Shown one piece after another: positions 26,022-49,679 of a stretch of 49,816 nucleotides of DNA (positions are counted from its first letter, which is position 1; the number at the start of each line of letters is the position of its first letter). Position numbers and translations under genes: made by a program. The stretch is from Draconibacterium orientale (GTDB lineage Bacteria > Bacteroidota > Bacteroidia > Bacteroidales > Prolixibacteraceae): NCBI GenBank assembly GCA_020726265.1, contig DYSZ01000005.1, forward strand, positions 1-49,816, in the 5' to 3' direction. The notes under the pieces were generated by a model that saw only the letters and a list, made by a program, of their open reading frames with translations, was not told where the DNA came from and searched no databases.

Positions 26022-26762
26022 ATGGATCTTGATCAGATATTTCAGAAAATCGGTACCACCCAAACGTTAAGCCAGAAGATTGAACGTAACATTGAACGTG
26101 CCATCCGCGAGAAAAAACTTCCGATTGGTTCGAAACTTCCTTCAGAGCGCGAATTGTGCGAAATGTTTGCAGTGAGCCGTACTGCGCTGCGCGAGGCGCT
26201 CAGGCGATTAAGTGCACGCGGCCTGATTCAGATTAAAAAGGGTAGTGGAATGGTGGTTACCAACATCGACATAAAAGATGCAATCAGTTCGCTCAATTTG
26301 TATTACGACCTCAAATTTGATGAAAACCTGATTGGACAGATCATCGAACTCAGGCTCGCTTTTGAACCCGAAATTGCAAAAATGGCTGCCATCAACCGCA
26401 CCGATGAAGACCTGAAAAATATGGAAGCTAACCTGGTGGAGTTCGCTAAATGCAACCCCGACAATACACAGCTTGAATCGGACATCGACAACCGGTTTCA
26501 CCTAACTGTGGCCCGCGCTACCGAAAACCCTTTTGTAATTGTTACCATGGAGCCGGTGCACAACCTTTTACCGCGGATGCGCAACTTTATTTACGCCAAC
26601 ATTGAGGGCGAAAAGGAAATAACTTTAGGGTATCATAAGGAAATTGTTAATGCAATAAGGGAGCGCGATGCCGACCGTGCCTACGAAAAAATGCAGGCAC
26701 ACATCGATCGCAATATGCAGTTGTACAACAAGTTTTTCAAACAAATAAAATTGCCCGATTAA
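26022..26762 (+). CDS. FadR/GntR family transcriptional regulator (FCD domain)
   Basis: The protein has 246 residues. The winged helix spans ~10-80 with SKLPSERELCEMFAVSRTAL and a GSGMVV wing. The C-terminal FCD domain (~95-230) keeps the metal/ligand pattern: the aspartate and histidine of DIDNRFHLTVARA, then YHKEIVNAI and HIDRNM. FCD regulators sense small carboxylates or sugar acids. Its neighbours murQ and the kinase make MurNAc or MurNAc-6-phosphate an attractive effector, since it carries a lactyl carboxylate. That is inference. Candidate operators are found upstream of itself, at the kinase/acetyltransferase divide and before susC. Confidence 0.9.
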   Translation: MDLDQIFQKIGTTQTLSQKIERNIERAIREKKLPIGSKLPSERELCEMFAVSRTALREALRRLSARGLIQIKKGSGMVVTNIDIKDAISSLNLYYDLKFDENLIGQIIELRLAFEPEIAKMAAINRTDEDLKNMEANLVEFAKCNPDNTQLESDIDNRFHLTVARATENPFVIVTMEPVHNLLPRMRNFIYANIEGEKEITLGYHKEIVNAIRERDADRAYEKMQAHIDRNMQLYNKFFKQIKLPD

Positions 26763-26782
26763 TGCCATTTAGTTGGTATTAA

Positions 26783-26834
26783 CAGACTTCGACTATGCTC
26801 AGTCTGACCGTCACCCTGAGCGCAGTCGAAGGGT
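26783..26834. repeat. Bacteroidota palindromic repeat, copy 1
   Basis: A 52-nt element with arms CTTCGACTATGCTCAG and CTGAGCGCAGTCGAAG. It sits between the convergent GntR and murQ genes and is 47/52 identical to 33251-33302 by direct comparison. The hairpin could act as a terminator or mRNA 3' stabiliser. Confidence 0.8.
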
Positions 26835-26889
26835 ATTTTGCAATCAACTAAAAGCTTTTTGCCGTAAATAAACGAGATTGATACCTAAA

Positions 26890-27711
26890 TTATAACTCCT
26901 GATTTTTGGCTTTTTCCAACACTGCATTCACCGACCCATGCAGAAGCAGTAAACGCTTGGCAGTTTGTTCATTATAGCCCAGTTCAGCCATAATCATTAG
27001 CGTGCCGCGATGAACCAGTTTCTGGTTGGTAAGCTGCATATTTACCATTTTGTTGCCTTTCACCCTGCCAAGTTTTATCATCAGCGAAGTGGTGATCATG
27101 TTCAGGATGAGTTTTTGCGAAGTCCCCGATTTCATGCGGGTGCTTCCGGTAACAAATTCAGGCCCCACAATAGCTTCAATAGCCACATCGGCATTTTGGG
27201 CAAGTACACTGTTCTGATTATTTACAATACACCCCGTAAGTATGCCATTTTCGCGGGCTTTTCGCAGCGCACCAACTACATACGGTGTGCGGCCCGAAGC
27301 AGCAATGCCAACCACAGTATCCAACGGATTGATATTAAATTTCCGAAGTTCATTCCAGCCCATTTCTTCGTTGTCTTCTGCTGATTCAACAGCTTTGCGG
27401 ATGGCGCGGTCACCACCGGCAATCAGTCCGATTACAAGGTCGTAACCAACCCCGTAGGTTGGAGGAATTTCTGAAGCATCCAGAATGCCCAGTCGTCCGC
27501 TGGTACCAGCGCCTAAATAAAACAAACGGCCACCTTTTTTCATGCGCTGCAGAATTTGCTCCACCAGCATTTCAATTTTCGGAATTGTCGCATTTACTGC
27601 CGGCAAAACTTTTTTGTCTTCTTCGTGAATGTTCAGTAAAAGTTCTTTTACCGACATCTTTTCCAGATCGTTGTGTAGTGAATCTTTTTCGGTAATGCTG
27701 TCCTGGTTCAT
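26890..27711 (-). CDS. murQ: N-acetylmuramic acid 6-phosphate etherase
   Basis: A 273-residue SIS-fold enzyme removing D-lactate from MurNAc-6-phosphate to give GlcNAc-6-phosphate. Family hallmarks are FYLGAGTSGRLGILDASEIP (glutamate in ASEIP), AVESAEDNEEMG, GIAASGRTPYVVGAL and TGSTRMKSGTSQKL. The C-terminus is a little shorter than the usual ~300 residues, but all core motifs are intact. It overlaps the upstream kinase gene by 4 nt, so kinase and etherase are translationally coupled and follow each other in the pathway. Confidence 0.96.
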   Translation of the reverse strand: MNQDSITEKDSLHNDLEKMSVKELLLNIHEEDKKVLPAVNATIPKIEMLVEQILQRMKKGGRLFYLGAGTSGRLGILDASEIPPTYGVGYDLVIGLIAGGDRAIRKAVESAEDNEEMGWNELRKFNINPLDTVVGIAASGRTPYVVGALRKARENGILTGCIVNNQNSVLAQNADVAIEAIVGPEFVTGSTRMKSGTSQKLILNMITTSLMIKLGRVKGNKMVNMQLTNQKLVHRGTLMIMAELGYNEQTAKRLLLLHGSVNAVLEKAKNQEL

Positions 27712-28571
27712 GGTAGGTTTGTTTTAATCTTTTCTGCTTGAATATGATATTGAACAAGTCCGTCAATCGGTTCTTTGAGAATAACCGGATTTGAAAAATT
27801 GTATTGTGTCAACACTTTTTTCAGAACTGAACTGAAATGCCAGGCTACAGAGCCGGCGAAACCAATCGTCGTTTCATGTCTCGAAGGGAGTTTTAATACA
27901 TTGCGTTCGATAAATGCTTTGAAGTTGGTTTCAACAAATTGCTGACAATAGGGATGCTCCAGATTTTCTGACAGAAAAGGAGTGAAAGTGGCAAGAAATT
28001 GGTTAGGCCGTACTTCGCGGTAAACGCGGTTCAGCGCTTCTTCGCGGGCGAGGTTAAACTTTTGCTGAAAAGCAGACCGTAATTCAGCGGGCATAACTTC
28101 CTTAAAATAATCGCCAAGCAGGTGTTTTCCCATCACTGCGCCGCTGCCTTCGTCGCCCAGAATAAAACCCAGCGGCGAAACATGGCCGGCAATGATTTTA
28201 CCATTGTAAAAACAGGCATTCGAACCGGTTCCCATAATGCAGGCAATGCCTGACTGATTTCCAAGCAGCGCATGACAGGCTCCCAGCAAATCGCTTTGTG
28301 TTTCAATGTTTGCTTCGGGATAAAAGCTGCGCAACGCATTTTTTACGATTTCTCCTTTTTCGGCACTCACCACACCGGCACCGTAAAACCAGATTTCAGA
28401 AACTCGCGAACCGGTCACCGGGAACAACTTTTCACCAATTTCAGATGCCATATCTTCGGCGGTCCTGAAAAACGGGTTCATGCCCTGCGTGGTGATTTCG
28501 GCTTGCACGCCGGTTTGGTCAGCCAGTCGCCAGGCTGTTTTTGTCGATCCGCTGTCGGCTATTAAAATCAT
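27708..28571 (-). CDS. murK: BadF/BadG-type ASKHA kinase, probable MurNAc/GlcNAc kinase (MurK-like)
   Basis: A 287-residue ASKHA kinase. ADSGSTKTAWRLAD is the phosphate-1 loop, IACIMGTGSNACFYNG the phosphate-2 loop, and LGFILGDEGSGAVMGK the conserved N-acetylglucosamine-kinase-type motif. It belongs to the BadF/BadG/BcrA/BcrD (NAGK-like) group. In Tannerella forsythia a kinase next to murQ (MurK) phosphorylates cytoplasmic MurNAc. The same position and 4-nt overlap with murQ support that role here, although a preference for GlcNAc cannot be excluded. First gene of its minus-strand operon. Confidence 0.85.
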   Translation of the reverse strand: MILIADSGSTKTAWRLADQTGVQAEITTQGMNPFFRTAEDMASEIGEKLFPVTGSRVSEIWFYGAGVVSAEKGEIVKNALRSFYPEANIETQSDLLGACHALLGNQSGIACIMGTGSNACFYNGKIIAGHVSPLGFILGDEGSGAVMGKHLLGDYFKEVMPAELRSAFQQKFNLAREEALNRVYREVRPNQFLATFTPFLSENLEHPYCQQFVETNFKAFIERNVLKLPSRHETTIGFAGSVAWHFSSVLKKVLTQYNFSNPVILKEPIDGLVQYHIQAEKIKTNLP

Positions 28572-28657
28572 GAGCGGTTTATTGTTTTATTCAAGTTAAA
28601 TTGCAAAAAGTTCATACTAACATTTCAAGGTGTAAATATAGAAATATTGATTAAACA

Positions 28658-28686
28658 CAAAGCAATATGTAACATGTATTACCAAA
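28658..28686 (-). promoter_or_regulatory. Candidate kinase/murQ promoter with GntR-type operator in its spacer
   Basis: On the minus strand TTTG (28686-28683), 17 nt, then TTGCTTTG (28665-28658, one mismatch to TAnnTTTG). The intervening DNA is occupied by ATGTAACATGTATTACCA (28667-28684, plus strand), which matches the 25915 palindrome at 14 of 18 positions. An operator lying between -33 and -7 would fit repression. Confidence 0.5.
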
Positions 28687-28908
28687 TTTTTTTCAGATGA
28701 TTTACAATGGCATAATACCTGCTTTTGAATTGTTGAGTTTTTGTTTTAACTTGGAAATGATTACCATGGCTGTTTAGAGGGTCAGCTCAATCGGTTTTTG
28801 TATAATTATTTGAAATATAGCAAGATGAATATTTTTATAGATTGTATAATCAAACAATTACAGAAATATTTTCATCATGAAAAAAATGGTATTTTAAGTA
28901 TTTTACGA

Positions 28909-28937
28909 TTTGCAATATGTATATTTTAATATATTTG
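28909..28937 (+). promoter_or_regulatory. Candidate promoter of the acetyltransferase/amidase operon, with an operator half-site
   Basis: TTTG (28909-28912), 17-nt spacer, then exact TATATTTG (28930-28937), 33 nt before the ATG at 28970. The spacer begins with TTGCAATATGTAT (28910-28922), matching the left half and centre of the GntR-type palindrome. Confidence 0.5.
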
Positions 28938-28969
28938 CAATCTGTCATACATCTTATAATTATAATGCT

Positions 28970-30079
28970 ATGCCAAAATCAGAACGCTATCTTGCACTCG
29001 ATGTTTTAAGGGGAATCACTGTTGCCATGATGATTTTGGTGAACACGCCCGGAAGCTGGTCGCATGTATATTCACCGCTTTTGCATGCCAAATGGCATGG
29101 CTGCACGCCCACCGACCTTGTTTTCCCGTTCTTTTTGTTTGTGGTGGGAGTTTCCATGTTCTTTTCGTTTTCGAAATACAGCAATACATTAAATAAAGAA
29201 ACGCTGATAAAAATTGGCAAACGCACACTGCTAATTTTTGCAATCGGGTTGTTTCTGAATTCATTTCCGCAGTGGGCTGCCGACTACTCAAAGCTGAGAA
29301 TTTTGGGTGTTTTGCAGCGGATTGCCATTGCTTACGGGTTGGCATCAGTTCTGGTTCTGGCGGTAAATCGCAAATTCTTGCCTTACCTGGGTGCTGCCAT
29401 TTTGCTTTTGTACTGGGGTTTGCTCTGGTATTTTGGCGGAGCCGACCCATATTCGCTTGAGCAAAATGCAACGCTGGCTTTTGATTCGGCAATTTTGGGA
29501 GAAAACCACATCTACAAAGGGTTTGGAGTACCTTTTGACCCCGAAGGTTTGTTTAGTACAATTCCGGCGGTGGTTACAGTTATCATTGGTTATCTGGTTG
29601 GGAATCTCATTCAAACCAACGAGCGAAAGTGTGTACCCAATAAATTGCTGCTTGTGGGTGTGGCAGGAGTGGCTGCCGGTGCTTTGTGGGGATTGATTTT
29701 CCCTTTGAATAAACCACTTTGGACAAGCTCGTATGTTTTGTACACTGCCGGCTGGGCTGCCATGTTGCTGGGTGCGTTGGTCTGGGTAATCGATATAAAA
29801 GGCTTCTCACGCTGGAGCTCATTTTTTGTGGTTTTTGGTGTAAACCCGCTGTTCATTTTTGCATTGTCGGGGCTGTGGGCAAAAATTATGGGGAGGCTAA
29901 TCAAAATTGCCGATCCCGATGGAGAAATGATAAGTGGTTCCAAATGGTTGTACACTGAGATATTTGTTCCATTGGCCGGAAACATGAATGGCTCGCTGTT
30001 GTATGCCATCAGCCATGTTCTCGTTTTTTGGCTGATTGGTTACATTTTATACCGGCGCAAAATTTTTATCAAAGTGTAA
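28970..30079 (+). CDS. NagX/HGSNAT-like membrane acyltransferase (DUF5009 family)
   Basis: The protein has 369 residues and about ten membrane helices. The N-terminal RYLALDVLRGITVAMMILVN, then HAKWHGCTPTDLVFPFFLFV, is the signature shared with heparan-alpha-glucosaminide N-acetyltransferase and bacterial NagX; the histidines in this first loop are the likely acyl carrier. Such proteins transfer acetyl groups across the membrane to amino sugars. Here it heads the plus-strand operon that includes a secreted amidase-like protein, so it may acetylate amino-sugar fragments in the periplasm. The ATG at 28970 starts the conserved N-terminus; the open frame upstream is promoter DNA. Confidence 0.85.
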   Translation: MPKSERYLALDVLRGITVAMMILVNTPGSWSHVYSPLLHAKWHGCTPTDLVFPFFLFVVGVSMFFSFSKYSNTLNKETLIKIGKRTLLIFAIGLFLNSFPQWAADYSKLRILGVLQRIAIAYGLASVLVLAVNRKFLPYLGAAILLLYWGLLWYFGGADPYSLEQNATLAFDSAILGENHIYKGFGVPFDPEGLFSTIPAVVTVIIGYLVGNLIQTNERKCVPNKLLLVGVAGVAAGALWGLIFPLNKPLWTSSYVLYTAGWAAMLLGALVWVIDIKGFSRWSSFFVVFGVNPLFIFALSGLWAKIMGRLIKIADPDGEMISGSKWLYTEIFVPLAGNMNGSLLYAISHVLVFWLIGYILYRRKIFIKV

Positions 30080-30095
30080 TGCCGCAAAATTTACA

Positions 30096-33000
30096 ATGAA
30101 ACAAACAAAATCAATACAGGTGAAAGGACTAAACAGTTTGATGATACTGGCTTTTATGGTTTTGGCGCTTGTTTTTGCAAAAACAGAAACTGTAACGGGT
30201 CAGCCCCAAAAACGGGTTAAAAAAGCCCATTCAGCAGCCGAAAGATTTTCGGAAGAGGCCAAAAACGGATCTTCGTTTTCCACAAAAGTTGATACAGTAA
30301 TTATCGACAGCCACCAGAAAACTTTTACCCTGAAAATGACTGACGGTTTTTCTGATAATCCGTTTCGCGAAGAAAATACAGAAGATTACTATTCATTATT
30401 AAAGGATGCGTCAGGCAGAAAGTTCAGAGAATACACATTCAGCATCGAAACGATAGGGAAGGAAATCGGCGATTTGATACCCAATTATTACAGAAATCAG
30501 ACTGAAAAGGATGTAAAACGCCTCAGTTTGCAACATGCAAATCAGCCGGGTTTGGTAAAGAATATCTCGAAAAACTACACATTCTCACAAGGTTTATCGG
30601 GCTGCCATATTGCGCTTTGGCACAGCCACGGCTGGTATTACGAAAACACGCTCGACCGATGGGAGTGGCAGCGCGCTCGCGTTTTCCAAACCGTTGAAGA
30701 CATCTGGACCATGAGTTTTGTGGTTCCGTACATTGCGGTAATGCTCGAAAATTCCGGAGCAAATGTGTTGATTCCACGCGAACGTGATACCCAAATCAAC
30801 GAAGTGATTGTGGATGCTGATGGTTCGTCGGCTAATGCTGAATACATTGAATCCGGCATTTGGCAACCCAGCGCTCAGCCGGGTTTTGGACTGAAAGTGC
30901 CTTTTTTGTTCGATGGCGAAAATCCTTTTCAAATGGGAACTTCGCGCCGCATCAAATCTGATTCACAGGGCTCTGCCAGCATCCGTTTTGTTCCTGAAAT
31001 ACCCGAAAGCGGGAGCTATTCAGTTTCAGTTTCATATCGTTCTGATACTGAAAATGTTTCCGGCACCAGATACACCGTGTATCATGCAGGTGGCAAAACC
31101 GAATTCAGCATCAACCAGCAAATGGGCGGTGGAACATGGATTTACCTGGGTACTTTTCGGTTCGAAAAAGGCAAAAATCCCGAAAGTGGCAGCGTCGAAC
31201 TCAGCAATAAATCGAATAAACCCGGCGGGTTTGTTTCGGCTGACGCGGTGAGATTTGGCGGCGGCAGTGGAAATATTGTCCGCGGTAAAACAGATCAACT
31301 CGCGGAACTTCGCAAAATCCGCGACGAAAAAGGTTTCGAGACCGATTCATCGTTGTGGTTGCCGTTTGCAAGCCGCCGGCCACGCTACCAGGAGGCTGCG
31401 CGCTACTACCTGCAATATGCCGGAATGCCCGACTCAACAGTTTACAGCATCAACCGAAAAAAGGAAGACTACTCGCACCGCGGCAGCGACGCCGCTTTGT
31501 ATGCTGCACGCGAAAGCGGAAAAGAAGATTACAAGGACGATTATATGAGCCGCGGCGAATGGGTGAATTACCTGATGGGAATCAGTACCAAAACGGGGCA
31601 ACCTACTCAAGGACTGAATATCCCGGTGAAACTGGCGCTCGCTTTTCATAGCGATGCCGGCAATACCCCCGACAGCGCGATTATTGGCGCTTTGGGCATT
31701 TACAATACAACAGTTGGCGCCGACACCTTCCCAAACGGACTGTCGAAATGGGCCAGCCGCGATTTGTGCGACATTGTTCAGACCCAGGTTACCGATGATT
31801 TGCGCCGTTTGTACGAACCCGACTGGACCCGCCGCGGCATGTGGAACAAACAATATTCCGAAGCGGTGAAACCAAAAGTGCCCACCATGCTTTCCGAGTT
31901 TTTGTCGCACCAGAATTTTGCCGACATGGCGCTGGCCACCGACCCGCGGTTCAAATTCGATGTCAGTCGTGCATTTTACAAAGGAATACTCAGGTTTTTA
32001 TCTGCACAAAACGGAACAAATTACACTGTGCAGCCGCTGCCGGTTTCACATTTTGCCCTGCATACCGAAAATATTGGAATCAGGCTGAGTTGGAAGCCAG
32101 TAGCCGACCCGTTGGAACCCACGGCTGTGCCAACATCTTACCGGATTTATAAGCGCATCGGAACAGGCGGATTTGATAACGGAACCGATGTTCCCAACAC
32201 CACTTTTCTTTTCAACGAACTCAATCCGGGAGTGATTTACAGTTTTAAAATTACTGCGGTAAACAGTGGCGGCGAAAGTTTCCCCTCCGAAATTCTGGCC
32301 TGCAGTTTCAACGGCACCCAAAAACCAGTGCTGGTGGTAAATGCCTTCGACCGTATTTCGGCGCCGGCAGTTTTTGATAACGGAAAAGAAGCCGGTTTTA
32401 ACAATGCCGAAGACGAAGGAGTAAGTTACATCAGCGACATCGCGTTTATTGGCGACCAGTACGATTTCGACAAAAAATCGCCATGGAAAGACGATGATGC
32501 ATCGGGTTTTGGCTCGTCACACGCCGACCAGGAAGCCTTGGTGAAACACGGAAATTCGTTTGATTATCCGCTGGTACACGGCGCTGCAATCGTCAACAAT
32601 GGTGGCAGTTTTATTTCGATGAGCGACGAAGCTTTCGAAACCGGCAACTGGGATAAAAACAGCTATGCGATGCTCGACATTATTTTTGGCGAGGAAAAAA
32701 CCACGCGGCGGTTGTACGGAAACAACGCCCCTGCATTTACGCTGTTTACGCCCGCAATGCGCAGCGCAATCGGAAAATATGCCTCTGTTGAAAATGCAAA
32801 AATTCTTGTTTCGGGTGCGTATGTAGGTATCGACCTCGAATTGTGCGGCGACACATTGGCAAAGAAATTTGCCGCGTTGGTACTGCATTACCGGCACATG
32901 ACAAACCACGCCAGCAAATCGGGCGAAATTTTCCCTGTCAACAGCATGAAATCAGATTTTCCGTCCGGGGTCAGTTTTGTGCAGAATTACAATCCTGCCA

Positions 33001-33218
33001 TTTATAAAGTTGAATCACCCGATGCCATTGAACCTGCAGACAAGGAATCCGGCGTTTTGTTCCGCTACTACGGCGACCAGAAAAGTGCTGCCGTGGTGCA
33101 CAACGGAAAAATCAAAACCATGGTTTTTGGTTTTCCGTTTGAGACAATAACAACCGATGCGGAACGAGATGAATTGATGAAACAGATTTTGACGTACTTT
33201 GGATTGAAAGAAAAGTGA
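30096..33218 (+). CDS. Large secreted N-acetylmuramoyl-L-alanine amidase-like protein with golvesin-C-like insert and FN3 domain
   Basis: 1040 residues from the ATG at 30096, with a signal peptide or N-terminal anchor at 11-36. An amidase_3-like catalytic core appears split. Putative zinc ligands are H176/H178 in ALWHSHGW and a glutamate near 190. An LENSGANVLIPRERD segment corresponds to the family's L...GA.V..TR.. strand, followed by H518 in ALAFHSDAG and E601 in MLSEFLSHQNFAD. Between the second and third parts lies a golvesin-C-like beta domain (~265-390). An FN3 domain follows (~655-735), then a C-terminal domain to 1040 that I do not recognise. It probably trims stem peptides from murein outside the cytoplasm. 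It begins 16 bp after the acyltransferase gene. Confidence 0.75.
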   Translation: MKQTKSIQVKGLNSLMILAFMVLALVFAKTETVTGQPQKRVKKAHSAAERFSEEAKNGSSFSTKVDTVIIDSHQKTFTLKMTDGFSDNPFREENTEDYYSLLKDASGRKFREYTFSIETIGKEIGDLIPNYYRNQTEKDVKRLSLQHANQPGLVKNISKNYTFSQGLSGCHIALWHSHGWYYENTLDRWEWQRARVFQTVEDIWTMSFVVPYIAVMLENSGANVLIPRERDTQINEVIVDADGSSANAEYIESGIWQPSAQPGFGLKVPFLFDGENPFQMGTSRRIKSDSQGSASIRFVPEIPESGSYSVSVSYRSDTENVSGTRYTVYHAGGKTEFSINQQMGGGTWIYLGTFRFEKGKNPESGSVELSNKSNKPGGFVSADAVRFGGGSGNIVRGKTDQLAELRKIRDEKGFETDSSLWLPFASRRPRYQEAARYYLQYAGMPDSTVYSINRKKEDYSHRGSDAALYAARESGKEDYKDDYMSRGEWVNYLMGISTKTGQPTQGLNIPVKLALAFHSDAGNTPDSAIIGALGIYNTTVGADTFPNGLSKWASRDLCDIVQTQVTDDLRRLYEPDWTRRGMWNKQYSEAVKPKVPTMLSEFLSHQNFADMALATDPRFKFDVSRAFYKGILRFLSAQNGTNYTVQPLPVSHFALHTENIGIRLSWKPVADPLEPTAVPTSYRIYKRIGTGGFDNGTDVPNTTFLFNELNPGVIYSFKITAVNSGGESFPSEILACSFNGTQKPVLVVNAFDRISAPAVFDNGKEAGFNNAEDEGVSYISDIAFIGDQYDFDKKSPWKDDDASGFGSSHADQEALVKHGNSFDYPLVHGAAIVNNGGSFISMSDEAFETGNWDKNSYAMLDIIFGEEKTTRRLYGNNAPAFTLFTPAMRSAIGKYASVENAKILVSGAYVGIDLELCGDTLAKKFAALVLHYRHMTNHASKSGEIFPVNSMKSDFPSGVSFVQNYNPAIYKVESPDAIEPADKESGVLFRYYGDQKSAAVVHNGKIKTMVFGFPFETITTDAERDELMKQILTYFGLKEK

Positions 33219-33250
33219 TAATGAATCAATGTCGTTTAGATAGTAATAAA

Positions 33251-33302
33251 CAGACTTCGACTTCGCTCAGTCTGACTGTCACCCTGAGCAAAGTCGAAGG
33301 GT
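33251..33302. repeat. Bacteroidota palindromic repeat, copy 2
   Basis: 47/52 identical to 26783-26834, same orientation. Arms CTTCGACTTCGCTCAG / CTGAGCAAAGTCGAAG. It stands between the amidase-like gene and the glycosyltransferase gene, in a 311-bp gap that otherwise holds only the next element. Confidence 0.8.
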
Positions 33303-33355
33303 GTTTAAGATTGTTTATTTTGGCCATGAGAATGAGATATTTATCAGTAAGATAA

Positions 33356-33481
33356 AACTCCGAAGGAGTTAGATTTGAATAACCCGATCCCGAAACTTCG
33401 GGATCAACCCCGGGAAAATGTGTGGGAAAATAACCGTCCGCGAGTGGAATCCCTTCTGGGAAATGCCGTAATTTCGGACGG
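33356..33481. repeat. Composite of short palindromes upstream of the glycosyltransferase gene
   Basis: Ordered hairpins: AACTCC-GAA-GGAGTT (33356-33370), GATCCCGAA/ACTTCGGGATC (33386-33404), and CCGTCCG (33434-33440) with CGGACGG (33475-33481). The first two are of a type scattered through Bacteroidota genomes. It may interrupt or insulate the operon. Confidence 0.6.
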
Positions 33482-33529
33482 AAAAGCACAAAAAATGGTA
33501 AGTGAGTTGTAACAATAGAAATAAAAAAT

Positions 33530-34996: not shown

Positions 34997-35033
34997 TGAA
35001 TAATTGAATGGGAAAAATTTTCAAAACATATTT

Positions 35034-35123: not shown

Positions 35124-35169
35124 AAAAATGAATGGTAAATCGTACTTTGTAAATGGTAAATCGAATGTA

Positions 35170-40882: not shown

Positions 40883-41913
40883 TTCCAAAGCGAAAATATC
40901 CGGCTGATTTTGAGCAGCTCGCCCGCGTGCTTCGTCGCGAAACACCCGACAGGCCGGTGCTTTTCGAGTATTTTGTAAATGCCGGATTGATTTCGTTTTT
41001 TAACGACAGGCCTTTCGAAGCGGCTGAAACTCCTGAACAAAAAATCAGGGATATTATCGGTTTTTTCCACACTTCCGGTTATGATTATGCGACTATTCCT
41101 TCGCGCTATTTTGGCGGATTTTCGTTCACCACTGCCGACCAGGAAAAAAAAGCAACCGTTTCGCAGAACGAAGGCAGTGTGATTACCGACAGAAACACAT
41201 TTGAAAAATACAACTGGCCCAATCCCGAACAGGGCGATTTTGAATTGCTGGATAATATGGCAACTGAGTTAAAAGATGGGATGAAGCTTGTGATTTCGGC
41301 ACCCGGCGGGCTGCTCGAAAATGTGACAAGCCTCGTTGGTTTCGAGAACCTCTGTTTTATGCTGTACGAAGATGAGGAATTGAGCAAGGCCATTTTCGAT
41401 GCGGTGGGTTCTCGGCTGCTGCGGTTTTACGAAACCTGCAGTTCGGTTTCAACCGTGGGTGCACTCATTGTAAACGACGACTGGGGTTTTAAAACGCAAA
41501 CCATGATTCCGCCCGAAATGCTGTGCGAACTTGTATTTCCGTGGCACAAAAAAATAGTGGAGGCCATTCACCATAACGGAAAATTTGCCATTCTACATTC
41601 ATGCGGAAATCTTGAAGCCGTGATGGATGATGTGGTGAATGAACTAAAATTCGATGCAAAACACTCGTTTGAAGATGCCATCATTCCGGTGGAGGATTTC
41701 TGGCAACAATGGCATGGAAGAATTGCGGTAGTTGGTGGCATCGATTTGGATTTTCTGACACGCGGAAATCCGGAGGAAATTTTGAAAAGAGGCCATAAAA
41801 TATTGGAATTAACCGGTCTGAAAGCTTATGCACTGGGTTCGGGGAACAGCATTCCGGGCTATGTTCCGGTTGAAAATTACCTGGCCATGATTTCTGCTGC
41901 CGGCGATTTTTAA
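40879..41913 (+). CDS. Uroporphyrinogen-decarboxylase-like (URO-D/MtaA superfamily) protein
   Basis: 344 residues, TIM-barrel URO-D superfamily. AILHSCGN (~236-243) matches the H-x-C zinc motif of corrinoid methyltransferases of the MtaA type. The usual C-terminal zinc cysteine is not seen: the corresponding stretch reads YALGSGNSIPGYVPVENY. True haem-pathway HemE motifs at the N-terminus are also absent. So neither haem synthesis nor a standard Co-methyl transfer is obvious. The 4-nt overlap with namZ makes it a translationally coupled member of the recycling operon. Its job there is unknown; a lyase or demethylase step on a sugar-derived carboxylate is speculation. Confidence 0.75.
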   Translation: MIPKRKYPADFEQLARVLRRETPDRPVLFEYFVNAGLISFFNDRPFEAAETPEQKIRDIIGFFHTSGYDYATIPSRYFGGFSFTTADQEKKATVSQNEGSVITDRNTFEKYNWPNPEQGDFELLDNMATELKDGMKLVISAPGGLLENVTSLVGFENLCFMLYEDEELSKAIFDAVGSRLLRFYETCSSVSTVGALIVNDDWGFKTQTMIPPEMLCELVFPWHKKIVEAIHHNGKFAILHSCGNLEAVMDDVVNELKFDAKHSFEDAIIPVEDFWQQWHGRIAVVGGIDLDFLTRGNPEEILKRGHKILELTGLKAYALGSGNSIPGYVPVENYLAMISAAGDF

Positions 41914-42479
41914 TCTCCTGTTTTAAAGACAAAATCCTGCAGGTTTTAGTCTCAGCTTTTCTTAGTAATAATTATAATACATGTTCAATTAATGGGATTA
42001 ATATTATATATGTATTACAAGTTGATTTTTTCGATACCAAAAATCATATTTTAAGATGTTTGTAACAGATCGGAGAATTACTTTACCAATACGATAGATT
42101 CTGAATATGATTATATATAGCTGCATATTAGATTGACTTTCATTTGTTTTACAAAAGAATACTGCCGGTTTATTTTAAAAAGAAAAACTCACTTTCAATT
42201 CTTTTGACAAATATTAATTAATAAATTGAAAAACAGATATATACATAATTGAGACTATCGAATTGAAAAAATTGGTATTATATCTTACAAAAATGCATGT
42301 TTATTTAAAAAATTATCCTTACTTTGGGTGCGAATAAACCAGAATTAAGCTATTGAAAACATATAAAACAATAAATCAAACTTGCATCCAATGATTATCG
42401 GAAGAGATATCAATCAGTTTTTTAACTATCATAAATTCAAATATTTAATATCATTCATCATGTAATTACTAATTGTACT
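41914..42479. promoter_or_regulatory. 566-bp AT-rich leader of the susCD operon with GntR-type half-sites
   Basis: No gene. Two sites resemble the 25915 palindrome. 42003-42020 has ATGTATTACAA, a strong right half and weak left half. 41972-41989 has AATACATG, the same core in reverse orientation. A -7-like TTACTTTG sits at 42319-42326 (one mismatch), leaving an ~150-nt leader. The rest is low-complexity A/T without recognisable structure. Confidence 0.45.
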
Positions 42480-45400
42480 ATGAAAAAAACGTTAGCTATT
42501 CTCTTATTTTTGGGCCTGTTTGTTCAAATGGCAACGGCACAAAAAAGGTCGGTTTCCGGAGAAATCCGCGAAAAGAAGACCAGTGAGTTACTACCCGGGG
42601 TTACAGTGCTTGAAAAAGGTACGTCGAACGGAACAGTAACCAGTACAGACGGACAATACCAGATTTCGGTTTCGGAAGGAGCCACGCTGGTGATCAGTTA
42701 TGTTGGTATGACAACCCAGAAAATTAAAGTGGGTAGTGTATCAACAATCAATGTCAATCTTGAGTCAGCCTACGAAGAGCTGGATGAAATTGTAGCCGTG
42801 GGTTACGGAACTCAAAAGAAAACAAACCTGACGGGTGCAGTAGCATCGGTTGATATGAAAGTGCTCGACTCGCGCCCCATTCCTGATGTAGGTCGTGGCC
42901 TGCAGGGAACAACACCTGGTTTGAGCGTTGTGGTTCCGAGTGGTGAAATCGGGTCCGACCCGATTATGAAAATCCGCGGACAGCTTGGCTCAATGCAGGG
43001 ACGTTCGTCTCCATTAATTTTGATGGACAATGTTGAAATTCCTTCAATTCAGATGGTGAACCCTGATGATATTGAATCGATTTCAGTTTTAAAAGATGCT
43101 GCTTCAGCTTCAATATATGGGGCGAAAGCTGCATTTGGTGTTATTCTTATTACCACAAAAAAAGGCGCTAAAACCGAGAGTGTGAATGTAACTTACTCCG
43201 GTAACCTGGCATTTCAGAACATTTCGAAAAAAATGGAGATGGCTGAACTTGATGGGCTGGAATATACTACACTGGCTTTTGAGCGCGTCGGTGGAGTTGT
43301 GGCTGGTGCATTTTGGCAAATGACCCGCGAAGGCTATGACAAAGCAAAAATCTGGCAGGAAACTTATGGAGATGTGGTAAAACCAAACGACCCCATGTTG
43401 TATGGTCGCGACTGGTATGTTGATGCCAGCAACAGAAAAATAGGGTTAAGAACCTACGATCCATACGATTATATGGTAAACGAATGGACACCAACACAGA
43501 CCCATAACGTATCGGTGAATGGCAAAAGCGGAAAAACCGAATACAATGTGGCTTTTGGCTATCTCGACCAGACTGGTTTGATTAAGCCATCCAAAACAGA
43601 TGATTTTCAACGTTACAATGGTTCTGTCAGGCTGGGTACATATATTACTGATAACCTGAAAGTATATGCAGGCTCTATGTATTCGAAGCGAAACAAAAGC
43701 TATGCTTATGCAACCAGTTCAACCACTGCCGACCCGTGGTTGTACATATATCGTTGGGGGCCGACATATCCTATGACCACAGAAGATGGTGACCCACTCC
43801 GCAGCCCGGCGTACGAAATGTCGGCTGCAAATACAGCGAATCAGGAAACAAATTACCTGAGTATGAACGGAGGGCTCAATTATTCTCCAACAAAAGACTG
43901 GAAAATCAATTTTGATTATACGCATGCCAATCAGGAATACATGGAGAAAAACCCGGGAACAAGATACACCGCACGTGATACTTGGTCGGCTGCTGTTGCA
44001 AGAAACGATGTCGATGGCAACCGGATTTATGTAAACAATGCAGGCGAAGAAGTTCCTTCAACTGCCGAAGGCGCCATGCCGGCATATCAGTTGGTTATGA
44101 AAACCTACACTTCTGTTGGCGCCAATCCTGATCATGTTTACCAGATTGCTCAGAATATGCAGTGGAACACCATTAACCTGAATACCACTTACGATTTGAA
44201 TTTCGATGATGTGCATAAATTCAATTTTATGTTGGGTATGAACAGCGTAAGTATGACAAGCACCTCCAACTGGTCGCAGATTACACAGTTGGTTGATTAC
44301 GAAAATCCTCAGTTTAACCTGGCTTACGGAACACAAACTGCTGGTGGTAATGAATACTGGGAATCGCAGTTAGGTTTCTTTGGAAGGATGAACTACAATT
44401 TTAAAGAAAGATATCTACTGGAAGCCAACCTGAGATACGATGGAACTTCTAAATTTCCGACCGACCTGAAATGGCGCTGGTTTCCATCATTCTCAGCCGG
44501 GTGGCGTGTAAACGAAGAATCGTGGATGGACTGGTCAGAATCGTGGCTTGATGCACTGAAATTTCGTGGCTCATGGGGTACCATCGGCGACCAGTCTGTA
44601 CCCGGATCACTCTATGTCCCAACAATGAGCGGTTCGATGACAAGCTGGATGATTTCGAATGCAAAACTATACCAGTTTGGCACACCGGGCGCAGTTTCTA
44701 CTTCGGTTACATGGCAGGATATTACCACACTCGACCTCGGTTTTGATGCGCGTTTCCTGAAAAATGAACTTGGTTTAGGCTTCGACTGGTTCCAACGCGA
44801 TACAAAAAACATGATTGTTCCGCTTGAAGGAATTCCTGCAACATTTGGTACTGGTGCACCACAAAGTAACTATGGTTCGCTGAGAACAAACGGTATTGAG
44901 GTGCAGGTTGATTATGTTCACAGGTTTAAAAACGGATTGGGTATCAATATGGTGGCTACTTTCTCTGATGCAGTTACAGAGATTACTGAGTACGGAACAA
45001 CCCAAAGTATTGATAGCTGGTATGTGGGAAAAACCTACGGCGAAATCTGGGGTTACGAAACCGACCGTTTATATCAGAAAGAAGATTTTGAATACGGAGG
45101 CGATGGTAAATTACAGAAAGTGGAAGTTACCGATCCGAAAGGAACAAAATACACTGTTTACAAACAAGCCGACCCGAATTCACCAACACAAGGCAGATTA
45201 CAATCGGGTAACTTTTTGTTTGGCCCCGGCGATGTGAAATTTAAAGATTTAAATGGCGACGGTGTAATTGATCCGGGTAACCGATTGCTTACAAATGCAA
45301 ATGGCGAAGCCGATTATGGCGACCTGAAAGTGATTGGAAATTCAACACCACGTTACCAGTATGGTTTACGTGCAGGTGCTGATTTTAAGGGAATCGATTT

Positions 45401-45881
45401 CTCAGTATTTATTCAGGGTGTTGGAAAACGTGATGTTTGGGGTAACGGATTTTTGGCGATCCCCGGTTTCAACTCTTCGGATGGTGCCATGCCACAAGCC
45501 ATTGCAGGCGATTTCTGGCGCGAGGACCGCACCGGTGCTTTTTACCCGGCTCCATACAACCAGGCCGGAAGCAATACCTCTCTTAATATGCAGGTACAAA
45601 CCCGCTACTTGCTGAATATGGCTTACACACGTATTCAAAACATCACACTTGGCTACTCATTGCCAATGTCTGTAATCAGTAAAGTCAATATCAGCAAAGC
45701 ACGTTTTTATGTTTCGCTCGAAAACTTCTTTACTTTCGACAAACTGGGCGGGCTGCCAATCGATCCTGAAGTAATTTCGGGTTACTCCATGTGGAATTCT
45801 TCTTATTACAATATGGGCCGCACAGGTATTGGGGTTCCAACCTATAAAAGTGCTTCGTTCGGTCTTCAGTTAAACTTCTAA
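42480..45881 (+). CDS. susC: SusC/RagA-type TonB-linked outer-membrane transporter
   Basis: 1133 residues. A signal peptide (MKKTLAILLFLGLFVQMATAQ) is followed by a carboxypeptidase-D-regulatory-like domain (~22-100), a TonB-box-like DEIVAVGYGTQKK, a plug domain (LQGTTPGLSV, ILMDNVEIPS, SISVLKDAASASIYGAKA), then a 22-stranded barrel ending in SFGLQLNF with terminal phenylalanine. It takes up oligomeric nutrients across the outer membrane with the SusD partner 13 bp downstream. The substrate is not readable from sequence. Location after namZ, and an operator-like site shared with the GntR gene, favour murein- or glycan-derived ligands. No sigma/anti-sigma pair is nearby. Confidence 0.95.
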   Translation: MKKTLAILLFLGLFVQMATAQKRSVSGEIREKKTSELLPGVTVLEKGTSNGTVTSTDGQYQISVSEGATLVISYVGMTTQKIKVGSVSTINVNLESAYEELDEIVAVGYGTQKKTNLTGAVASVDMKVLDSRPIPDVGRGLQGTTPGLSVVVPSGEIGSDPIMKIRGQLGSMQGRSSPLILMDNVEIPSIQMVNPDDIESISVLKDAASASIYGAKAAFGVILITTKKGAKTESVNVTYSGNLAFQNISKKMEMAELDGLEYTTLAFERVGGVVAGAFWQMTREGYDKAKIWQETYGDVVKPNDPMLYGRDWYVDASNRKIGLRTYDPYDYMVNEWTPTQTHNVSVNGKSGKTEYNVAFGYLDQTGLIKPSKTDDFQRYNGSVRLGTYITDNLKVYAGSMYSKRNKSYAYATSSTTADPWLYIYRWGPTYPMTTEDGDPLRSPAYEMSAANTANQETNYLSMNGGLNYSPTKDWKINFDYTHANQEYMEKNPGTRYTARDTWSAAVARNDVDGNRIYVNNAGEEVPSTAEGAMPAYQLVMKTYTSVGANPDHVYQIAQNMQWNTINLNTTYDLNFDDVHKFNFMLGMNSVSMTSTSNWSQITQLVDYENPQFNLAYGTQTAGGNEYWESQLGFFGRMNYNFKERYLLEANLRYDGTSKFPTDLKWRWFPSFSAGWRVNEESWMDWSESWLDALKFRGSWGTIGDQSVPGSLYVPTMSGSMTSWMISNAKLYQFGTPGAVSTSVTWQDITTLDLGFDARFLKNELGLGFDWFQRDTKNMIVPLEGIPATFGTGAPQSNYGSLRTNGIEVQVDYVHRFKNGLGINMVATFSDAVTEITEYGTTQSIDSWYVGKTYGEIWGYETDRLYQKEDFEYGGDGKLQKVEVTDPKGTKYTVYKQADPNSPTQGRLQSGNFLFGPGDVKFKDLNGDGVIDPGNRLLTNANGEADYGDLKVIGNSTPRYQYGLRAGADFKGIDFSVFIQGVGKRDVWGNGFLAIPGFNSSDGAMPQAIAGDFWREDRTGAFYPAPYNQAGSNTSLNMQVQTRYLLNMAYTRIQNITLGYSLPMSVISKVNISKARFYVSLENFFTFDKLGGLPIDPEVISGYSMWNSSYYNMGRTGIGVPTYKSASFGLQLNF

Positions 45882-45893: not shown

Positions 45894-47720
45894 ATGAAAA
45901 AGATAATTATAGTTTTATTGACCGCAGTAACCCTTGTGTTCAGCAGTTGTGAGGATTATCTCGATAAACCTTCGTTAACAACTATGAACGATGACAACTA
46001 CTGGACAAGCGAAAACAGTCTTCGCCTGTTTGCCAATGGTTTTTACTCCAACTATTTTGTAGGATACAACAGTTCCTGGGGTGTTGATTATGCATCGCTG
46101 CGCGGTTACACATTTTCCGACGACCTCGCTTCGTCTGGTAAACAGGGCGGTTTTGAAACACAGGCACCATCATCGCGTGCAGCTACATCTGAAACTGCAG
46201 CATGGCTTTCTACTTACACAGGATCAACCTGGAATTTTGCATGGGTTCGCAAATCAAATCTTTTTATAGAAAGAATTGACCAGATGAAAGACGACAAAAT
46301 CACAGCCGAAGCCTATAAACACTGGAGTGCTGTGGCACGTTTTTTCAGGGGTTATGAATACAGTCGTTTGGTGAGCGTTTTTGGCAATGTGCCATACTAC
46401 GACAAAGTTTTACTTGATACCGAAATTGATCTGATGTACAAAGACCGCGACGACCGCACCATGGTGATGGACAAGGTTTACGACGATTTTGTGTATGCAC
46501 TCGACAACATGCGCCTTTCAGACGAAAGCGCCCAGTACCTGAACAAATACATTGCAGCTTCATTCATCTCGCGTTTGATGTTGTTTGAAGGAACCTGGCA
46601 GAAATACCACCTGAACAACAACGAAAAAGCAGCTAAATACCTGAATCTTGCAGCAACAGCAGCCCAATTTGTGATTGATTCAAAAAAGTATTCGTTTGCC
46701 AGTGATTTCCGTTCGCTTTTTGGTTCAGAAGATTTGTCGGGTAACAAAGAGGTGATTTTGTTCCGTCAGTACGATGCAGCTATTGGAGTTACACATCATA
46801 TTGCATCGTATTCGAATGGCTACGAAAGTCAAAGCCCTGGACCAAACCTTAAACTTGCAAAGTCTTTTATTTGTAACGATGGAAAACCGTACAAATTATC
46901 GACGGTTGAAAATGCCGGCAAACTCAATATAAAGAGTGTTGTAGCCACCCGCGACCCGCGTTTCGAAGCTACTTTCTGGGATTCTCCTAAAAAGGAGTCG
47001 GCTACACTTCTGTATGCCTGTAAGTTTATCGACCGCGAAGGTGTTAAATTGTACCCGGGTCCGTATCCGGCAAAATATGGTTCTAACACAAATACAAACG
47101 ATGCACCCGTAATTCGTTTGGCCGAAGTGGTTTTAAACTGGATTGAAGCCAAAGCCGAGTTGGCCACTTTGGGTGGAACTCCGGTTGCACAAGCCGATAT
47201 CGATGCATCAATCAATGCCATCCGCAACCGTCCGCTCGATGCAACTGCCACAGCAAAAGGGATTAAGAAAACAGCCCCGCTTTCGCTGGCAGCACTTCCT
47301 GATGATCCTGAACGCGATGCCGATGTTCCTGCACTGATCTGGGAAATCCGTCGTGAACGCCGCATGGAATTCGTGTTTGAACATTCACGTCTGCTCGATA
47401 TTAAACGCTGGAAAAAAATCAATTATATGACCAATACCGACCCTGATAATTTGCTGGGTTTGTGGGTCGATTTTCAGGCTGAATATCCCGAATGGCTGGT
47501 GAAAGCAAAAGAAGGAAAACTGAAAGTGAAAAAGGAAGACGGTACAATTGTTACATACAACGCTACAAATAAGGCTGATATGGTTGGCTACTACATTCCT
47601 GAAAACGTTTCAAACCGCGATGCTTTTACCGAAAGGGTTTATCTCGCTCCGGTTGGAAATACACAAATCAGCGAGTATATCGACAAAGGTTTCACTCTGA
47701 CACAAACTCCTGGATGGTAA
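45894..47720 (+). CDS. susD: SusD/RagB-type surface lipoprotein
   Basis: 608 residues. The signal peptide ends in VFSSC (lipidated C19), with the acidic EDYLD export tail. TPR-like helices and the SusD-core features follow: LRLFANGFYSNYF, YEYSRLVSVFGNVPYYDK and the C-terminal IRRERRMEFVFEHSRLLDIKRW. It binds the ligand and acts as lid for the SusC barrel. Full length, co-transcribed with susC; a terminator follows. Confidence 0.95.
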   Translation: MKKIIIVLLTAVTLVFSSCEDYLDKPSLTTMNDDNYWTSENSLRLFANGFYSNYFVGYNSSWGVDYASLRGYTFSDDLASSGKQGGFETQAPSSRAATSETAAWLSTYTGSTWNFAWVRKSNLFIERIDQMKDDKITAEAYKHWSAVARFFRGYEYSRLVSVFGNVPYYDKVLLDTEIDLMYKDRDDRTMVMDKVYDDFVYALDNMRLSDESAQYLNKYIAASFISRLMLFEGTWQKYHLNNNEKAAKYLNLAATAAQFVIDSKKYSFASDFRSLFGSEDLSGNKEVILFRQYDAAIGVTHHIASYSNGYESQSPGPNLKLAKSFICNDGKPYKLSTVENAGKLNIKSVVATRDPRFEATFWDSPKKESATLLYACKFIDREGVKLYPGPYPAKYGSNTNTNDAPVIRLAEVVLNWIEAKAELATLGGTPVAQADIDASINAIRNRPLDATATAKGIKKTAPLSLAALPDDPERDADVPALIWEIRRERRMEFVFEHSRLLDIKRWKKINYMTNTDPDNLLGLWVDFQAEYPEWLVKAKEGKLKVKKEDGTIVTYNATNKADMVGYYIPENVSNRDAFTERVYLAPVGNTQISEYIDKGFTLTQTPGW

Positions 47721-47732
47721 AAATCTGGTTAC

Positions 47733-47816
47733 TTCGGGTGAATTGAACCCGAAAATTCATAGACTTTAGTTTAGTTAATCTTGCATCGGGTGACCAAAAA
47801 TCACCCGATGTTTTTT
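47733..47816 (+). terminator. Hairpin plus strong terminator after susD
   Basis: TTCGGGT (47733-47739) and ACCCGAA (47747-47753) form a first 7-bp stem. A second, perfect 10-bp stem CATCGGGTGA (47784-47793) / TCACCCGATG (47801-47810) is followed by six T residues. The terminator ends only 24 nt before the next ATG, so the downstream gene depends on readthrough or on a promoter located before the stem. Confidence 0.9.
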
Positions 47817-47840
47817 ATTTTCAACCCAAAATAGTGGATA

Positions 47841-49679
47841 ATGAAAAAGATTTTGCTGGTTGTTCTTGTTTCACTAATTGTTTTTGCACTTAGCGCACAA
47901 TCATTCAAATTTGCACTGGTTACCGACAGCCATGTTGGTGGAAGCACCGGAGCAGCCGATCTGGAACTTACAATTGCCGATATCAACCTGAATCCCGAAA
48001 TTGAGTTTGTGATTTTATCGGGCGATGTTACCGAATTTGGTTCTGAAAAGGAATTGCTTGAAGCCAGAACAATTCTTCGTGAACTGAAAGTTCCTTTGTA
48101 TGTTTTACCCGGAAACCACGACTCAAAATGGTCGGAAAGCGGCAACAACGATTTTGTTACCTTTTTCGGGGCCGAAGAATTCAGTTTCGAAAAGAACGAA
48201 TTTCTGTTTATAGGTACGGCCAGCGGGCCAAATATGCGGATGGCCCCCGGGCTTGTTCCGCGCGAACAGATGGTTTTTCTCGAAAAAACACTCCGGCAGA
48301 TGTGTGACACTACCCAACCTGTAATTTTCATCAATCATTATCCGCTCGACGAGTCGCTGGCCAACGCCGGCGAAGTAACCGACCTGTTGAAAACCCGAAA
48401 TATTCAGGTGAGTTTGATGGGTCACGGGCATGCCAACAAAACATTCGATTTCGATGGTATTCCGGGTGTAATGTGTCGCTCAAATCTCAGGGCAAAAAAT
48501 GAAGTCGGGGGATACAATATTGTGGCCATAACTGCTGATTCAATCAGTTTTACCGAACAGAATCCGGGTGGAAACGGAAATCGGTGCTGGTGCAAAATTC
48601 CGGTTCAGCATCACAGGTTTAAACCCAAATCAACCAGCATTTCAGAAACAGATTTCTCTGGTATTTTAAAATATCCAGAAATCAGTATAAAATGGAGATT
48701 GCAGGACAACAGCGATATTGGAACCGGAATTACAGTTGCCGGAAAGTGCGCAGTGTATGCCAATACCCGTGGCGAAATTGTGGCTGTTCAGAAAAATACG
48801 GGGAAAACAGCCTGGCGGTTTGTCACCCGGGGAAAAGTGTATTCAACACCGGTAATCAGAAAAAACAGGGTTGTGGTGGCCTCAACCGACAAAAATATTT
48901 ATTGCCTTAATCTGAAAACAGGTAACCCCGAATGGCATTTTGAAACCGGCAAACCCCTTGTTGCTTCGCCGGTAATTGATGGTGAAACAGTGTTTATCGG
49001 TTCATCCGAAGGTATGTTCATGGCCATCGATTTAAATTCGGGTAATCTGAAATGGCAGTTTAGCGGAGTGAACGGGTTTGTCGAAACGAAACCGCTGGTT
49101 TATCAAAACAGGGTTTATTTTGGCTCGTGGGGCAACACTTTTTATGCACTCGACAAAGAGACAGGTGCATTGCGCTGGAAACGCGAAAAATATAACAACC
49201 GCATGTTATCGCCGGCGGCAGTCTGGCCTGTGGCGGCAAATGGTAAAATATTTATTGTGGCTCCCGACCGCCGGATGACTGCCCTCGATGCCAAAACAGG
49301 CATCGAAATCTGGGATTCAGGAGAATATTCATGCCGCGAATCCATCGGAATTTCAAAAGATGGGAAACATGTGTATATCAAAAATATGACCGAAGGACAT
49401 GTGATGGCATTCGAAACAGCGGCAAACGAACAGCAAACAGCGTGGGATTGTCCTGCTGAACTGGGCTACGAAATAGGCCCGTCGCCAATCACCGAAGCCG
49501 ACAATTTGATTTTTGTTCCCACTTCGCTCGGTGAAATTGTGGCCATCGGCAAAGAAACACACACGGTTGAATGGCGGATAAAACTTTCCAACGCACTTGT
49601 AAATGGCGTTACTGCTGCCGGTAAACGCCGGATTCTTGCAACCACGTTTGACGGGTCGGTGGTGGCAATTCAGTACTAA
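47841..49679 (+). CDS. Secreted calcineurin-like metallophosphoesterase fused to a PQQ/BamB-like beta-propeller
   Basis: 612 residues with a signal peptide (~1-19). The phosphoesterase domain (22-~235) has all five motif blocks: D29-x-H31 (TDSHVGG), D62 (SGDVTEFG), N92/H93 (PGNHDS), H166 (INHYPLD) and H195/H197 (MGHGHAN). Residues ~290-612 form a propeller of PQQ-type blades with repeated G-x-x-x-W endings (GKTAWRF, GNPEWHF, GNLKWQF, GALRWKR, GIEIWD). It is probably periplasmic. Substrate unknown; neighbouring susCD suggests dephosphorylation of an imported phosphorylated glycan or lipid fragment. The remaining 137 nt of the window hold no gene start I can support. Confidence 0.88.
   Translation: MKKILLVVLVSLIVFALSAQSFKFALVTDSHVGGSTGAADLELTIADINLNPEIEFVILSGDVTEFGSEKELLEARTILRELKVPLYVLPGNHDSKWSESGNNDFVTFFGAEEFSFEKNEFLFIGTASGPNMRMAPGLVPREQMVFLEKTLRQMCDTTQPVIFINHYPLDESLANAGEVTDLLKTRNIQVSLMGHGHANKTFDFDGIPGVMCRSNLRAKNEVGGYNIVAITADSISFTEQNPGGNGNRCWCKIPVQHHRFKPKSTSISETDFSGILKYPEISIKWRLQDNSDIGTGITVAGKCAVYANTRGEIVAVQKNTGKTAWRFVTRGKVYSTPVIRKNRVVVASTDKNIYCLNLKTGNPEWHFETGKPLVASPVIDGETVFIGSSEGMFMAIDLNSGNLKWQFSGVNGFVETKPLVYQNRVYFGSWGNTFYALDKETGALRWKREKYNNRMLSPAAVWPVAANGKIFIVAPDRRMTALDAKTGIEIWDSGEYSCRESIGISKDGKHVYIKNMTEGHVMAFETAANEQQTAWDCPAELGYEIGPSPITEADNLIFVPTSLGEIVAIGKETHTVEWRIKLSNALVNGVTAAGKRRILATTFDGSVVAIQY

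Follow-up and report, generated by a model that had tools for sequence, protein, structure and literature searches.

Introduction

The closest described counterpart of the region studied here is the operon Tanf_08345-08385 of Tannerella forsythia, in which genes labelled xanthan lyase, gtf, gtf, lytB, ampG, ybbC, murT, murK and murQ were found by reverse transcription PCR to form one transcript (PMC5388701). AmpG of this organism imports the disaccharide of N-acetylglucosamine (GlcNAc) and N-acetylmuramic acid (MurNAc) together with its 1,6-anhydro form (GlcNAc-anhMurNAc), and T. forsythia grows on GlcNAc-anhMurNAc via AmpG without a predicted AnmK; the metabolic strategy for anhMurNAc is left by these authors as still to be explored (PMC7670621). 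Here we analysed positions 26022-49679 of a stretch of Draconibacterium orientale DNA of 49,816 nucleotides (assembly GCA_020726265.1, contig DYSZ01000005.1), the whole of which is called the window below. In this region, a tandem glycosyltransferase (GT), a DUF4922 protein and a SpoIID-family protein lie among genes for the recovery of peptidoglycan sugars.

The window shares the core order of the T. forsythia operon as given in PMC5388701: a golvesin/xanthan lyase-like gene, the GT, the slot of DUF4922, SpoIID/LytB, AmpG and NamZ. Hence, the neighbourhood itself is not new. From its position, not from its sequence, we infer that the second gtf of T. forsythia is DUF4922. Unlike the T. forsythia operon, the window has murK and murQ in divergent orientation, a NagX-like gene upstream, a URO-D-like gene after namZ and SusC/SusD genes downstream. 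Recycling of the E. coli type runs through AmpG, NagZ, AmpD, AnmK and MurQ. The window resembles it in having an AmpG-like permease and MurQ, with AnmK also encoded in the genome, and differs in having MurK for free MurNAc, in the additional three-enzyme module and in that AnmK is often missing from genomes with this module.

New in our results is a co-inherited, fusible and predicted cytosolic trio, associated with AmpG and with depletion of AnmK. A preliminary description made from the letters of the window overlooked the T. forsythia precedent, the trio as a fusible module and the SpoIID without a recognisable export signal. Full-text searches, with subscription literature mostly outside their range, gave no recycling role for DUF4922, the tandem GT or this SpoIID in titles and abstract openings, and the term 'DUF4922' turned up in plant literature only.

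Co-inheritance and fusion of the three genes

Two samples of 148 whole genomes each (295 distinct genomes) were searched, a phylum sample, whose only genome of the window's own order is that of the window, and an order sample. Matches were taken at E 1e-3 (phylum sample) or 1e-15 (order sample) for DUF4922, 1e-40 for GT, 1e-25 for AmpG (TIGR00901) and 1e-3 for AnmK (PF03702). Strong DUF4922 matches were present in 22 of the 148 phylum-sample genomes, weak matches in G027 (E 8e-6) and G136 (E 9e-4) being left out of the module count, and the tandem GT was present in exactly those 22. SpoIID domains (PF08486) were found in 45 genomes, and a form with a long insert (at least 339 bp) in exactly the 22 DUF4922 genomes; the remaining PF08486 matches listed span 255-288 bp. 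The long-insert criterion, first noticed in the phylum sample, was afterwards applied to the order sample, where DUF4922 occurred in 38/148 genomes, GT in the same 38, and long SpoIID (at least 327 bp) in the same 38 and in G263. Over both samples and with these cut-offs, 59 genomes carry all three genes, one carries SpoIID alone and none carries GT or DUF4922 alone. Around the SpoIID subtype of G263 (L142, C119), no other cluster gene lies in the 13 kb fetched.

The tandem GT, DUF4922 and this SpoIID subtype behave as one module, co-inherited without needing linkage. In the phylum sample, GT and DUF4922 are on separate contigs in G074 and G082 and more than 1 Mb apart in G132. In family f15, SpoIID and DUF4922 occupy different contigs in 12 of the 13 genomes and lie hundreds of kb apart in the remaining one, G124. 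Separate contigs for GT and DUF4922 were also seen in 7/38 module genomes of the order sample (G179, G189, G203, G226, G242, G306 and G313), a count in which contig ends can hide linkage.

Eight fusion open reading frames (ORFs) were confirmed by our own profiles, five of them also by Pfam. One joins GT, DUF4922 and SpoIID (L134, 1005 aa, running off the end of its contig), four join DUF4922 and SpoIID (L122, L135, L136 and L137) and three join GT and DUF4922 (L138, L139 and L140). The domain order across fusions is always GT, DUF4922, SpoIID. Genome G230 has a canonical cluster (L141) without DUF4922, and its DUF4922 lies elsewhere, at L140, in one ORF with a second GT. Among named isolates, Bacteroides fragilis (L119) and Dysgonomonas (L069 and L090) have the three genes side by side.

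Neighbourhoods were surveyed at 80 named loci, the best of 553 confirmed relatives found with the DUF4922 profile, so that counts lean to window-like clusters; they cover the fetched DNA, up to 10 kb on each side of DUF4922, and are minima owing to many short contigs. GT was found at 69 loci, AmpG at 54, SpoIID at 50, the golvesin protein at 33, MurK at 31, NamZ at 28, MurQ at 26, the NagX-like protein at 17, SusC at 13, SusD at 5 and GntR at 3. GT, AmpG and SpoIID thus lie near DUF4922 more often than chance. Gene order is rearranged at some loci, e.g. L113, L124, L125 and L038. The association of GT, DUF4922 and SpoIID with ampG, namZ, murK and murQ, which the preliminary description had proposed and which would have failed had these genes never co-occurred in related genomes, was found across Bacteroidota. 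Where SpoIID was missing beside DUF4922, the subtype was found elsewhere in 26 of 30 named-locus genomes (E at most 1e-187), in two of them with in-frame stops. In several Ignavibacteria-type genomes, the fetched DNA holds the GT-DUF4922 pair but no recycling genes; the pair's neighbours there (c8, c10, c12 and c13; histidine kinase, STAS, sigma-54 regulator and SpoIIE phosphatase) were weighed as possible partners in function and set aside as conserved but unrelated. Genome G047 carries a second GT-DUF4922 copy on C140 (L050), with DUF4922 in two pieces and ORFs between them, and an unbroken copy on C67.

Features of the module proteins

The two-domain GT2 glycosyltransferase (33530-34996, + strand; PF00535) is the first part of the module. 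Its N-half is GT-A-like and lacks DxD, and its C-half is canonical with DSDD and ED, which are kept in 75/75 GT sequences (alignment A2). With the equivalence drawn by eye, the N-half columns corresponding to DxD hold T, K or variable residues, column 78 being K in 44/75. The AlphaFold 2 model of GT (predicted local distance difference test score, 93.3) has K4 chondroitin polymerase (2z86) as its best structural match, aligned over both halves. Similar to tandem GT2 enzymes of this type, GT has two GT-A-like modules in one chain; unlike K4 polymerase, it has no DxD in the N-half, and its halves are placed differently (root-mean-square deviation of 21 over both).

DUF4922 (35128-36177, +), the second part, shows HxHxQ and CxxC motifs. 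The Apa2 fold and the HxHxQ active-site motif place it in the superfamily of Ap4A phosphorylase Apa2, GalT and ADP-glucose phosphorylase, as a nucleotide-transfer type of enzyme. Its active-site residues are intact. It departs from known members of this superfamily in that some genomes encode it in one polypeptide with GT or SpoIID.

The third part, SpoIID (36174-37508, +), scores 169.9 bits with TIGR02669 and matches the SpoIID structures 4rwr, 5i1t and 5txu. Glu123 (xxEM motif) and H180/C186/H190/C191, a zinc motif of the clostridial Cys/His type, are invariant in 53/53 sequences; their roles as catalytic residue and zinc ligands are taken from PMC6934232. In domain, catalytic Glu and zinc motif, the protein is therefore like the SpoIID lytic transglycosylases of B. 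subtilis and C. difficile. Unlike these enzymes, it is not linked to sporulation, shares a polypeptide or an operon with a nucleotide-handling enzyme and a GT, and has no recognisable export signal. A crude hydropathy screen of 56 sequences gave no clear signal peptide or N-terminal hydrophobic segment, and this screen and the fusions set the module SpoIID apart from the exported lytic transglycosylases. Because of the fusions to GT or DUF4922 and the lack of a recognisable signal peptide, SpoIID with its intact active-site residues is predicted to sit in the cytosol. GT and DUF4922 likewise have no recognisable export signal.

Association with AmpG and depletion of AnmK

In the phylum sample, to which AmpG counts apply, an AmpG-like permease was found in all 22 module genomes and in 25 of the 126 others (Fisher p 1.5e-13). 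AnmK showed the opposite tendency, with 9/22 module genomes against 95/126 others (p 0.002), and, among AmpG-positive genomes, 9/22 with the module against 24/25 without (p 5e-5). In the order sample, AnmK was present in 6/38 module genomes and in 94/110 others (p 9e-15). AnmK of G211, a match in two pieces, was counted as present. Both AnmK-positive and AnmK-less module genomes occur in each of eight families (f1, f13, f15, f18, f29, f33, f43 and f87), and this variation within module-bearing families suggests repeated loss (or gain) of AnmK. NamZ is useless as a discriminating marker, being present in 146/148 genomes.

Proposed role of the module and its alternatives

According to our proposal, to which we give a probability of about one half, the locus is a T. 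forsythia-type cluster for scavenging peptidoglycan sugars, whose heart is a cytosolic trio that acts on AmpG-imported sugars and makes AnmK dispensable. SpoIID enzymes form, or could reopen, a 1,6-anhydro ring; enzymes of the Apa2/GalT type work via a nucleotidyl-histidine, and GT2 enzymes use nucleotide sugars. The AmpG-like permease would bring (anhydro)MurNAc sugars into the cytosol, where SpoIID would act on the 1,6-anhydro-MurNAc end of GlcNAc-anhMurNAc by ring opening or transfer, or, as another target, on MurNAc-GlcNAc bonds of imported oligosaccharides. With a nucleotidyl-histidine as intermediate, DUF4922 would shift a nucleotidyl or phosphoryl group on the sugar, while GT would use or make the activated sugar. 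The net result would be an AmpG-fed route with AnmK dispensable, feeding MurK and MurQ or cell-wall precursors. A more specific and distinctly improbable version is that SpoIID transfers the GlcNAc-MurNAc unit of GlcNAc-anhMurNAc to phosphate or another acceptor, DUF4922 interconverts sugar-1-phosphate and nucleotide sugar, and GT uses the product. If true, the energy of the 1,6-anhydro bond would be kept, and anhydro-muropeptide sugars would re-enter biosynthesis without AnmK, sometimes on one polypeptide.

SpoIID enzymes are known as cell-wall enzymes outside the membrane; hence, a cytosolic lytic transglycosylase beside nucleotide-sugar enzymes would be unexpected. The trio is a candidate answer to the question, printed in PMC7670621, of how T. 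forsythia uses GlcNAc-anhMurNAc without AnmK. Since the three genes lie together in B. fragilis and Dysgonomonas isolates, the idea is testable, and the natural fusions can be expressed as single proteins.

Several observations weigh against this proposal. Free anhMurNAc gives T. forsythia only restricted growth (PMC7670621), so that any such route in this organism would have to act on the disaccharide. The p values for AmpG and AnmK ignore phylogeny. None of the 148 phylum-sample genomes reaches the curated cut-off of TIGR00901, and AmpG therefore means AmpG-like here. AnmK is kept in 14/59 module genomes, including that of the window (G000:C37), and DUF4922, a SpoIID domain, an AmpG match and AnmK are all present in the control Bacteroides ihuae. 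Thus, the module is no strict substitute for AnmK, and strict replacement was rejected. Moreover, the proposal does not account for the need for a GT in an anhydro-sugar route. The trio is also not complete everywhere: the SpoIID subtype was not found in 4 of the 30 named-locus genomes mentioned above, which may be incomplete, 11/80 named loci have no GT in the fetched DNA, a count limited to nearby DNA, and a single in-frame stop interrupts the sole GT copy of each of G082, G226 and G275 (3/59).

Other functions can be drawn from the same data. The tandem GT may build an alternating glycan of the N-acetylhexosamine type, with DUF4922 recycling nucleotide sugars, SpoIID cutting the polymer and peptidoglycan recycling merely supplying precursors. 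The match of the GT model to K4 chondroitin polymerase over both halves, the action of SpoIID enzymes on polymers and the Ignavibacteria-type GT-DUF4922 pairs without nearby recycling genes are in accordance with this. However, the N-half without DxD makes a two-site polymerase doubtful, and such a function leaves unexplained both the AmpG-like permease in every phylum-sample module genome and the depletion of AnmK, and we consider it unlikely. Quite unlikely, in our estimate, is that the trio serves glycosylation of the envelope or of proteins and only happens to lie in a scavenging operon, with co-occurrence due to shared ancestry and transfer of operons. In favour of this, earlier work cited by PMC5388701 described the T. 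forsythia operon as related to glycosylation, and in both samples the module is present or absent largely by family. Unlinked three-way co-occurrence, recurrent fusions, the link to AmpG and the depletion of AnmK, over 30 sampled families, argue in the other direction, as do the fully conserved catalytic residues of SpoIID.

These residues also bear on whether SpoIID is a non-catalytic partner of the amidase-enhancer type, leaving the chemistry to GT and DUF4922 only. LytB of T. forsythia is annotated 'amidase enhancer precursor' (PMC5388701), and the four DUF4922 genomes showing no such SpoIID would fit. However, neither Glu123 nor any of the four zinc ligands varies, no amidase is fused in any of the eight fusions, and SpoIID is present in 59/59 sampled genomes with GT and DUF4922, which leaves a non-catalytic role with the slimmest of chances. 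Hardly more probable is a single pathway made up of every gene of 26022-49679, with URO-D, SusC/SusD and the propeller protein among them, as the preliminary description had it. That view can draw on the 4-nt overlap of namZ and URO-D and on the SusC and propeller genes that flank some related clusters, and its part linking GT, DUF4922 and SpoIID with recycling genes holds. However, URO-D is present in just 1/80 named loci, URO-D and SusC are 566 nt apart, and murK and murQ run divergently from the other genes; membership of URO-D is not borne out, and that of SusC, SusD and the phosphoesterase-propeller protein (7/80 named loci) is weakly supported. In terms of our proposal of a cytosolic AmpG-fed trio, URO-D is a lineage-specific passenger, peripheral to the pathway and rejected as a core gene, and SusC and SusD are occasional neighbours of the cluster.

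Recycling genes around the module

The ORFs and families of the preliminary description were reproduced by Pfam and NCBIfam checks, and its four 4-nt overlaps are found at 27708-27711, 36174-36177, 39650-39653 and 40879-40882, from ORF coordinates and the start of NamZ. The MurNAc-6-phosphate etherase MurQ (26890-27711, − strand) passes TIGR00274 with 306.5 bits against a cut-off of 302. Next to it, the BadF-type kinase (27708-28571, −) has its best PDB profile matches in 8oqw and 8ow9 (E ~1e-74), with K1058-type 8ow7 next (E 1e-56). 8OW9 is T. forsythia MurK with MurNAc and 8OW7 is K1058 with MurNAc, and the code of apo MurK is printed as 8QQW in the same paper (PMC10465942). By these matches, the window kinase is identified as a relative of the MurNAc kinase MurK. 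MurK and MurQ are both in the cluster as in the T. forsythia-type operon, but run divergently from the remaining genes, which makes the region at least two transcription units in the window.

A GntR/FCD regulator (26022-26762, +; Pfam) lies beside murQ and murK in the window and also at L070, L071 and L074 (60-61% identity), and is a candidate regulator of murQ-murK and MurNAc catabolism. The membrane protein of the NagX/HGSNAT family (28910-30079, +; PF07786) scores 157.8 bits with NF046061, far under its equivalog cut-off of 480; its acyltransferase function is therefore not established.

Neither Pfam nor NCBIfam, nor a PDB profile search up to E 1, links the golvesin-C/fn3 protein (30036-33218, +), described before as amidase-like, to an amidase. 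Golvesin-C and fn3 are its sole Pfam domains, and the amidase assignment by profile was rejected. Its golvesin part matches the xanthan lyase structure 6f2p in the PDB profile search, and this would account for the name 'xanthan lyase' in T. forsythia. H198, E221, H538 and E621 are invariant in 27/27 golvesin-protein sequences longer than 900 aa, the window's included. Such a set would presumably suit a divergent Amidase_3 site, and the protein is possibly a divergent amidase.

The AmpG-like muropeptide permease (37755-39653, +; 632 aa) matches TIGR00901 with E 7.7e-52 and 176.3 bits, under the curated cut-off of 350. An insertion of ~190 residues, placed by eye between transmembrane helices 5 and 6, is likewise predicted by eye to be periplasmic. 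AmpG homologues form two length classes, 418-493 and 554-643 aa, one short fragment aside.

NamZ, an exo-beta-N-acetylmuramidase with a signal peptide (39650-40882, +; PF07075 and PF20732), has an ORF that opens at 39560; from the translation, its likely ATG is at 39650 and its end at 40882. A second NamZ of the window's genome (L051 8915-11676, G000:C107) is directly followed by an SSF sodium:solute symporter, members of whose family (c23) also lie next to module clusters, among them that of B. fragilis (L119). The symporter is a candidate MurNAc importer, and either it or the NagX-like gene could fill the role of the MurT transporter in this genome.

In the Bacteroides clusters L118 and L119, an FAD oxidase/Fe-S protein (c15, D-lactate dehydrogenase-like) stands between NamZ and NagX, and oxidation of the D-lactate set free by MurQ would fit as its role. 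Near the clusters L053, L055, L056 and L091, NlpC/P60 hydrolase and mandelate-racemase/muconate-type families (c34 and c28) occur, a possible stem-peptide branch.

Peripheral genes and region layout

The URO-D/MtaA-like protein (40879-41913, +; PF01208) has its single relative among the named loci at L088, with 68% identity, and a sequence search against PDB gave no match at E 0.001. Its HxC motif resembles the zinc site of MtaA-type methyltransferases, but Ser stands at the position of the third ligand. Further downstream lie SusC (42480-45881, +; TIGR04056, 766 bits), its outer-membrane partner SusD (45894-47720, +) and a calcineurin-like metallophosphoesterase fused to a PQQ/BamB-type propeller (47841-49679, +; Pfam), whose relatives near DUF4922 share 36-39% identity with it.

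Within 28000-43000, 19 promoter-like and 26 terminator-like sites were counted, where shuffled sequence gave means of 22.2 (sd 5.2) and 21.4 (sd 4.7), respectively. As these counts are near the shuffled means, operon limits cannot be drawn from the scan. Upstream of the region, at 21179-23689, the window carries multihaem-cytochrome-like and double-rhodanese genes.

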